This document shows positions 59,966-61,718 of a stretch of 64,000 nucleotides of DNA, piece after piece. How positions within the stretch are numbered: position 1 is the stretch's first letter; every line of letters starts with the position of its first letter. The stretch covers positions 1,860,001-1,924,000 of the forward strand of contig NZ_CAAHFB010000001.1 in the NCBI RefSeq assembly GCF_900880625.1, written 5' to 3'. The notes beneath the pieces were generated by a model that was not told the DNA's origin, did no database searches, and saw only the letters and a program-made list of their open reading frames with translations. The DNA comes from Halorhabdus rudnickae (lineage in GTDB: Archaea; Halobacteriota; Halobacteria; Halobacteriales; Haloarculaceae). The translations under genes were made by a program, and so were the position numbers.

Positions 59966-60059
59966 CGCGGCGTCTCCTTCCTCAAGCCCCGCCGTCATCG
60001 AGTCGTCGTTCGTCGCGATAGAACGGACGATTCAGTTCCGCCTGATTCACGATGGTGCA

Positions 60060-60383
60060 ATGGCGGCCTCCGAAGTTATCAGCAGTCACCCGCGACTGTA
60101 CCAGCGGAGTACCGAGGTCGGACTCTACGACGACGGGTTTGGGGAGCGCCTCGCCGAACTGTGTACTCAGAACCGGACAAAGACCTACTATCGGCTCGGA
60201 ATTGCCACCGAAGCACAAGCAAAGGCGAGCACGATCTCGCCACCGCGATTCATACAGAGCTCGTCAATGCGAGTCGAGTCCAACACGAGTGTCTCTGTTA
60301 ATCGATGGTCTCCGCAAGCTCTTGCCGAAGATAGATCTCAGGAATTCGCAACAATCGAAGAATTCAATTCAATCGACAATTAA
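60060..60383 (+). pseudogene. Possible frameshifted coding relic
   Basis: From ATG 60060 the frame reads MAASEVISSHPRLYQRSTEV, GLYDDGFGERLAELCTQNRT and KTYYRLGIATEAQAKA, which looks like a genuine helical protein. After about residue 54 it turns irregular, while a shifted frame reads HDLATAIHTELVNASRVQHE and stops. I infer a broken small gene. No family is recognised. It is the last sequence of normal composition before the AT-rich insert. Confidence 0.35.
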
Positions 60384-60392
60384 CACATCGTA

Positions 60393-60482
60393 ATGGAACG
60401 AAAGACCAAAGGGAGAATCGCAGGACTTCTTGGAACTATAATATCCATTATAATTGTTCTTTGGGCAATAGGAATAATCTAG
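60393..60482 (+). CDS. 29-residue membrane peptide next to the halocin-like gene
   Basis: ATG at 60393 opens a 29-codon frame: MERKTKGRIAGLLGTIISII then IVLWAIGII and TAG at 60480-60482. A basic head followed by one very hydrophobic helix resembles small immunity or holin-like peptides, but no relative is known to me. It is AT-rich, in line with the adjacent insert, and convergent with the halocin-like gene, 75 bases away. Confidence 0.45.
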   Translation: MERKTKGRIAGLLGTIISIIIVLWAIGII

Positions 60483-60557
60483 CTCATTTACCAAAAGAAG
60501 TCAAGATTTGTTCTTCTTACTCCTTAAATACCATCTGAATCAAAAGTCTGGTCTCGC

Positions 60558-61468
60558 TCATGCACTTATCCCACAATCTTCAAAGCACTGGGCACATGCT
60601 AGAGGAAGGGCAAAATTAGTATTTGCAATGCAGACCAAGCAAGTCAGACCGGCCGACTGGAAACACGACCAATAACAGAGACCTTTTGAAAGCGCCGCTG
60701 AGACGCAGGCGGCACAGGATAGGCCACAATCAAGGGCACCTTGAGTAGATATTGGGTTCTCCCCATTCACGGAACTCTGCGGTGTCGAAGTATCCGTAAA
60801 TGCAAGCGTTGGAGTCACCTCATCAATGTTTCTGGATGGGATTGCTCTGCCATGACCGTTCCCTTTCTTTTCAACGCGATACATTTTATTTTCATCTGAT
60901 AGCGCTAGGAAAGCGCCTTCATTACTATCATAAGCAGCGCGGATAATATCAGTAGAACCAGGTGCACGTTTTTGAATCTTACCGACTTCCTTATCGGTAG
61001 CTAGTCGAAGCATAGAGATCGACTCCTCATGTCCAACTATCGCCATTTGCGAATTTCGGGGGACCGATTTATACTGCCGCGGGAGATGTTTTTTTCACAC
61101 CCGTCTTTTTTGATAAATCATCCAAATTTAATTTGGCCTCCGTTTCTCCTGAGGAGGATTCCGCAAAAATCAACACCCCAACGTTCGTAGATATCTCCCA
61201 CCCTTTGATAGTTGTCTCAGATATTTGTATTTCTTTCCTTGTCGCATCCCCCGTTTCGATTCCTTGTACAGCGTCGATAATAGATTTGACCTTAGGAACA
61301 TTCAGAATGTTCTCTAATTCATCGTCTTCCGGGCCATATTCAGTTACGGATGGGGGCGCCTGGAACTTTTTTGTGCCCTTGTGCAGCCGCTGAACCAGCA
61401 ACGAGGGTAGATGTACTTGCTGTTGCACCAATCGCTTTCAGTAGCTTCCTTCGATTAATATCTGGCAT
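60558..61468 (-). pseudogene. Halocin C8-like precursor, frame broken twice at A-runs
   Basis: Three frames join into one precursor of about 302 residues. Part one (from ATG 61468) is a Tat signal, NRRKLLKAIGATASTSTLVAG. Part two, after a shift at the A6 run 61367-61372, has VTEYGPEDDELENILNVPKV. Part three, after a shift at the A7 run 61089-61095, has ATDKEVGKIQKRAPGSTDII and ends in a domain with ten cysteines (LDCGLSCAACVSAALSKGLC and so on). Signal, middle domain and Cys-rich end match the halocin C8 precursor, in which the middle part is the immunity protein. Removing one A at each run restores the frame. It may be a decayed gene, a slippage-read gene or contain sequence errors. Confidence 0.65.
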
Positions 61469-61718
61469 GGATTTCAACTCCAATTTGCATTTTCCGTTGA
61501 CATTATATATGGCTTTCGAATAGATCAAACTAAGAGTGTTACACGCCGATAAGATAATTGAATCGACTATTCTTTGTGACGAATCGGGTGAAAGATACGC
61601 GCCCCCATCTTGCACGCCAACCAGTAACAATATCGAGAATCCGACCGTTGCTTCGCTCAGTTAGGGAAGAGACAGTGACGCTTGTGCAGTCCACTAGTTC
61701 CGTCACTCCAAAACCTGC
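61469..61718. promoter_or_regulatory. Promoter region of the halocin-like gene
   Basis: On the minus strand a TATA box (CATATATAATG, about 61501-61511) lies about 33 bases before the ATG at 61468, and GGAGTTG about 9 bases before it acts as a ribosome site. The AT-rich character ends near 61600, at the right side of the insert. No gene fits the remaining part. Confidence 0.5.

Follow-up and report, generated by a model that had tools for sequence, protein, structure and literature searches.

A gene for a halocin C8-like precursor in Halorhabdus rudnickae, found within the 64,000-nucleotide stretch of DNA analysed here (the window), is split over three reading frames, and the two other precursors detected in the genome, both beyond the bounds of the window, are broken like it. 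We consider it probable that the breaks record a real and recent slippage-type inactivation of all three precursors in a former producer that has kept its protection. This goes beyond a single pseudogene: every detected C8-type precursor of the genome has been hit, and the likely immunity genes have been spared. If the breaks are real in the organism, the genome has lost all detectable C8-type precursors and retained likely immunity; we would then be looking at a former producer that is still protected, in which the loss of halocin production could be studied as a test case. Gene callers will miss such precursors, as the Tat signal and the core are never found in one ORF here.

The window gene and its breaks

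The precursor reading extends from 61468 to 60558 of the window in three overlapping minus-strand frames (a, b, and c), which end at stops at 61340, 61069, and 60558, respectively. This confirmed the first-pass annotation, which had assigned the Tat signal, the middle domain, and the C-terminus with its ten cysteines to three frames, with runs of six and seven A (A6 and A7) as described there. The features of the gene and its surroundings are as follows.

60335..61598, no strand: low-GC insert carrying the window gene; the flanks match sister species and the insert differs
61503..61518, minus: BRE/TATA-like element CGAAAGCCATATATAA, read from the sequence 5' of the start codon; putative promoter of the window gene
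61370..61468, minus: frame a, with the start codon and the Tat signal peptide MPDINRRKLLKAIGATASTSTLVAGSAAAQG, from the sequence and aligned homologue N-termini
61367..61372, minus (T on the plus strand): A6 run, where break 1 most likely lies
61352-61356, minus (G5 on the plus strand): C5 run, alternative site for break 1
61069..61366, minus: frame b, first half of a HalI-like middle domain, with its stop just past the A7 run
61089..61095, minus (T on the plus strand): A7 run, site of break 2
60558..61088, minus: frame c, remainder of the middle domain and the C-terminal cysteine-rich core
60561..60737, minus: ten-cysteine core, from the homologue alignment and a profile match to the TIGR04449 family
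60393-60482, plus: 29-aa ORF MERKTKGRIAGLLGTIISIIIVLWAIGII with one transmembrane (TM) segment, convergent to the precursor gene

The Tat signal carries the twin arginine RRKLLK and an AxA-type end, SAAA-QG; TAT models match it weakly, below their cut-off. The cysteines of the core are spaced C-x3-C-x2-C-x9-C-x3-C-x7-C-x2-C-x11-C-x2-C-x3-C, and the core is preceded by a recurring motif, xxTQG or xxAQG, which may be a processing site. A through-reading of the window gene of 302 residues served solely as a search query; residues 29-131 of it are matched by the strain's own genome at 93%.

The two breaks are located with different precision. Break 2 can be placed at the A7 run because the TGA of frame c stands immediately before the run and the conserved motif LPxx[YF][RK] starts immediately after it. 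This run is the only A7 or T7 within the surrounding 380 kb. Break 1 may lie anywhere from the Tat cleavage region to the stop of frame a, since the linker that follows the Tat signal is poorly conserved among homologues, and a shift at A6 or at C5 yields an identical downstream frame. Thus, of the two sites proposed in the first-pass annotation, A7 was upheld and A6 is likely, not certain, with C5 as the alternative.

Homologues and family placement

Matches to the window precursor were found in 20 of 392 genomes of the order, its own genome counted, and some of these matches cover the Tat signal only. In 15 other haloarchaeal genomes, 17 window-type precursors were identified, and all 17 are full-length as single ORFs (268-367 codons, stop to stop); one decayed window-type copy was also present elsewhere (locus L018). 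A profile search extended the matches to 56 genomes, in which the full-length members are continuous as well. In an alignment of 11 homologues, eight cysteines are invariant, and LPxx[YF][RK] is present in most members. Because the 17 homologues are single ORFs, both breaks lie inside a normally continuous gene, and it is this homology, beyond the open frames themselves, that joins the three frames into one gene. A true gene boundary at the breaks, for which the first-pass annotation had advised a check, is ruled out by homologues that run through both points. No second strain or close relative was found in the genome, viral, and plasmid contig collections, from which the strain's own species was possibly left out.

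The first-pass annotation had called the gene halocin C8-like, and this description holds at the level of profiles and not at that of the curated domain model. The window protein gave no match to TIGR04449 (the halocin C8 domain) at E<=1 and does not reach the curated cut-off. When the profile of its C-terminal part was compared with that of 58 TIGR04449 precursors, hhalign returned a probability of 97.7%, which is possibly inflated by cysteine-rich composition, whereas a reversed profile gave 17% and three controls with shuffled columns gave 0.1-0.2%. The middle domains of the two families fail to align. A Tat signal, a ten-cysteine C-terminal core, and profile-level kinship to TIGR04449 place the window protein in a halocin C8-like superfamily, whose functional hallmark is the proteolytic release of an antimicrobial peptide, with immunity conferred by the N-terminal part. 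We call the window-type precursors a separate family within this superfamily and regard them as putative antimicrobials. The comparison delineates a family of Tat/ten-cysteine precursors outside TIGR04449, and in many cases the next gene is a small one for a two-TM protein, possibly serving immunity.

At several window-type loci in other genomes, the precursor is followed in the same direction by a two-TM ORF of 60-80 aa. These ORFs are candidate immunity genes; where a locus is on the minus strand, its coordinates are counted on the reverse complement.

L006 2436-2621: two-TM ORF after a window-type precursor
L007 2366-2554: two-TM ORF after a window-type precursor
L008 2398-2613: two-TM ORF after a window-type precursor
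L013 2438-2662: two-TM ORF after a window-type precursor
L017 2355-2597: two-TM ORF after a window-type precursor

Two further precursors in the same genome

A search of the genome with TIGR04449 at E<=10 listed exactly two loci, C1:1591208 and C1:1599880, and the window gene was not among them. The two, referred to as precursors A and B, exceed the cut-off of 24 bits, with scores of 41 and 25.9, and are thus members of the TIGR04449 family. They lie outside the window, 260-330 kb off, and both are frame-broken between the Tat signal and the core.

L061 (G000:C1:1585001-1605000) 7073 to 6193, minus: precursor A
L061 5688-6161, minus: intact 157-aa membrane protein downstream of precursor A, in a gene that contains an A7 run
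L061 15771 to 14877, minus: precursor B

In precursor A, the Tat signal and about 113 residues share one frame and the core is in another. Where these frames overlap, the sole run of at least five is an A5, and alignment to L182 puts the joint at most about ten residues from it. In precursor B, the Tat signal is in one frame and the remainder, which gives 207 bits to an intact homologue (L168) from the same family of archaea, is in another; between the parts that align, the sole run of at least five is an A6. The breaks of A and B, and break 1 of the window gene, are assigned to A-runs solely because these are the only runs of at least five A in the respective intervals.

Downstream of precursor B, an intact gene with an A6 run encodes a two-TM protein of about 60 aa. 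The membrane-protein genes adjoining A and B are probably immunity genes. In the 157-aa protein, a two-TM unit has been duplicated internally, and both copies end in G[RL]KPW[FH]P. The Tat signals of A and B are identical over about 75 nt and the remainder has diverged, which suggests recombination or recent copying.

Broken precursors in other genomes

Among 68 TIGR04449 loci of other genomes, the Tat signal and the core share one frame in 58. The remaining ten are heterogeneous: three have the Tat signal in a different frame (L145, L151, and L178), two are truncated (L133 and L173), and five are without a recognisable Tat signal (L167, L171, L174, L184, and L186), among which are three much longer proteins. 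In L151, about 80 bp are inserted, and L133 has a different N-terminal region. By reading, no run of at least five A was found in the break intervals of L145, L178, and the decayed window-type copy L018, and none of the resolved breaks at TIGR04449 loci of other genomes is at an A-run. Breakage of three of three precursors in the strain's own genome compares with 10 of 85 elsewhere (Fisher p 0.003); if only two of the others count as broken, p is 9e-5, and the true figure lies between these values.

Explanations for the breaks

The breaks are read from the genome assembly, and one rival explanation is that homopolymer errors in it have split precursor genes that are intact in the organism; the first-pass annotation had listed such errors among its three options. 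Such errors would agree with the finding that all breaks are single-base changes at or near homopolymers, with the preservation of all cysteines and the lack of any other lesion in the precursor genes, and with breakage of all three precursors, which is odd for biology alone. However, 780 kb of the strain's own genome was checked for frame with the help of stretches from two relatives that total 1.6 Mb. Homology to 1239 reference genes from relatives covered about 155 kb of coding sequence; four candidate frame changes appeared there, and none was near an A or T run of at least five. Such runs were in frame by homology in 48 cases and within codon-model genes (780 kb) in 195; in the 380 kb around the window, 16 A6 or T6 runs lie inside ORFs that span at least about 200 aa. 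Several of the 18 A7 runs of the genome lie in intact ORFs, including the membrane-protein gene beside precursor A, and the genome (3.36 Mb in 6 contigs) has a completeness of 99.99%. By comparison, four of the nine runs of at least five A in the three precursors are broken, with break 1 taken as A6. The difference is marked against both 0/48 (Fisher p 3e-4) and 0/195 (p 2e-6), figures that are indicative, as the runs are treated as independent and the genes being compared differ in GC; the count by homology is the fairer, codon-model genes being intact by construction. After these frame checks, systematic assembly error at A-runs was dropped as the main explanation, and error at the precursor loci is unlikely.

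Of the options in the first-pass annotation, decay of the gene is the best supported, in the form of a recent inactivation: the homologues are continuous, and A and B are broken as well. Taking the assembly as right at the runs, the window gene has what defines a recently inactivated gene, namely a frame that is broken relative to continuous homologues and few further lesions. Beyond the breaks, the three precursor genes contain no further stop. At a neutral divergence of 1%, the three genes together would be expected to have gained about 1.1 stops and lost 0.8 cysteines, so the absence of an extra stop marks the breaks as recent, and we infer less than about 3% divergence since the precursors were lost. 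Weighing against inactivation, the two breaks in the window gene exceed what loss of function needs. The breaks are presumably present in the DNA of the organism, and an ordinary mechanism is most likely. In the course of events that we propose, single-base length changes in short homopolymers, presumably arising by polymerase slippage, would have recently disabled the window gene, so that an exported full-length precursor could no longer be made. Precursors A and B would have been disabled likewise, and the membrane-protein genes beside them, which would confer immunity, would have stayed intact. The strain would then be a former halocin producer that is still protected, in which loss of the precursors was presumably tolerated or favoured.

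Reversible switching, in which changes in run length toggle all three halocin precursors (phase variation) and immunity stays on, would also account for breaks near the 5' part of each precursor, intact immunity candidates, and few other lesions. It has been proposed that prokaryotes, archaea among them, use short A-tracts close to the 5' ends of genes as a means of inactivation (PMC2831843). Nevertheless, runs of five to seven are short for frequent switching, and two coordinated changes would be needed in the window gene. Moreover, runs of at least six A are rarer than expected in 75 intact precursors (loci L004-L188), with 14 observed and 25.3 +- 3.7 expected from synonymous shuffles; for runs of at least seven A, the numbers are 1 and 9.4. 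The idea that the precursor family consists of A-run-rich contingency loci was rejected, as the opposite was seen; depletion of A-runs fits mutation at the runs that remain. Switching is accordingly improbable. Still more improbable, to the point that we give it very little weight, is programmed recoding, that is, expression of the split frames through transcript slippage or ribosomal frameshifting, which had been raised in the first-pass annotation as slippage or +1 frameshifting. The sites are A-rich, and a precedent is fucA1, an archaeal gene for a fucosidase, in which -1 frameshifting takes place at a poly-A site. Along with this -1 shift, Sec and Pyl are the established cases of ribosomal recoding in archaea, and for a haloarchaeal virus a +1 event has been put forward (PMC8037382, PMC8211752). 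Against recoding, the homologues are continuous, the sign of the shift is the same in the window gene and precursor B and opposite in precursor A, and with two events in one gene the losses would multiply. Neither A6 nor A7 of the window gene is followed by structure beyond that of shuffled controls.

Relation to known systems

Bacteriocin and halocin pseudogenes with retained immunity are a known situation. Precursor loci A and B resemble it in that a toxin-type gene is broken and the adjoining likely immunity gene is intact. The window gene differs in that no intact immunity candidate was found beside it except the 29-aa one-TM ORF, which may encode a small immunity peptide or be a chance ORF; immunity is putative in this comparison.

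Compared to ProC8, the halocin C8 precursor (anatomy from PMC11509114), and the TIGR04449 family, the window precursor shares a Tat signal, a long middle part, and a small ten-cysteine C-terminal peptide. Unlike them, it falls below the TIGR04449 cut-off, has a middle part that does not align and another cysteine spacing, and is frame-broken. A hypothetical protein on plasmid pHl5678-1 of Haloferax larsenii NCIM 5678 (WP_258303565.1) belongs to the same family as the window protein, with 24.9% identity over 98% cover, and is encoded, unlike it, by a single intact ORF. The fucA1 gene of Saccharolobus solfataricus is, like the window gene, archaeal, split at a short A-run, and continuous in relatives (PMC8211752). 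Its single -1 shift gives a product proven experimentally, whereas the window gene has two shifts of the other sign and is known from sequence.

Genomic setting

The insert that carries the window gene is flanked by hemL and a gene fragment on one side and an ATPase gene on the other. HemL shares 95% identity with its counterpart in H. salina and 94% with the one in H. amylolytica, which places the host in Halorhabdus. Sister genomes keep the flanks and hold other sequence between them. The interval between hemL and the ATPase gene (window 59975-61598) varies among Halorhabdus species and is a variable insertion site, with a halocin-type gene here, a TFIIS-like zinc protein in one relative (G075), and other sequence in another (G143).

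The gene fragment (window 59993-60300) derives from a gene conserved in three other Halorhabdus genomes and has a 1-nt deletion outside homopolymers relative to all three sister copies; small indels thus accumulate here. The conserved gene seems to be 5'-truncated also in two of the three sister genomes at this site. Elsewhere on the contig, two stretches (G000:C1:1835800-1836620 and 1841000-1843000) appear to be decayed transposase remnants with frame changes, and candidate breaks at C1:1836149 and C1:1841000 were set aside, as by reading they look like such remnants.
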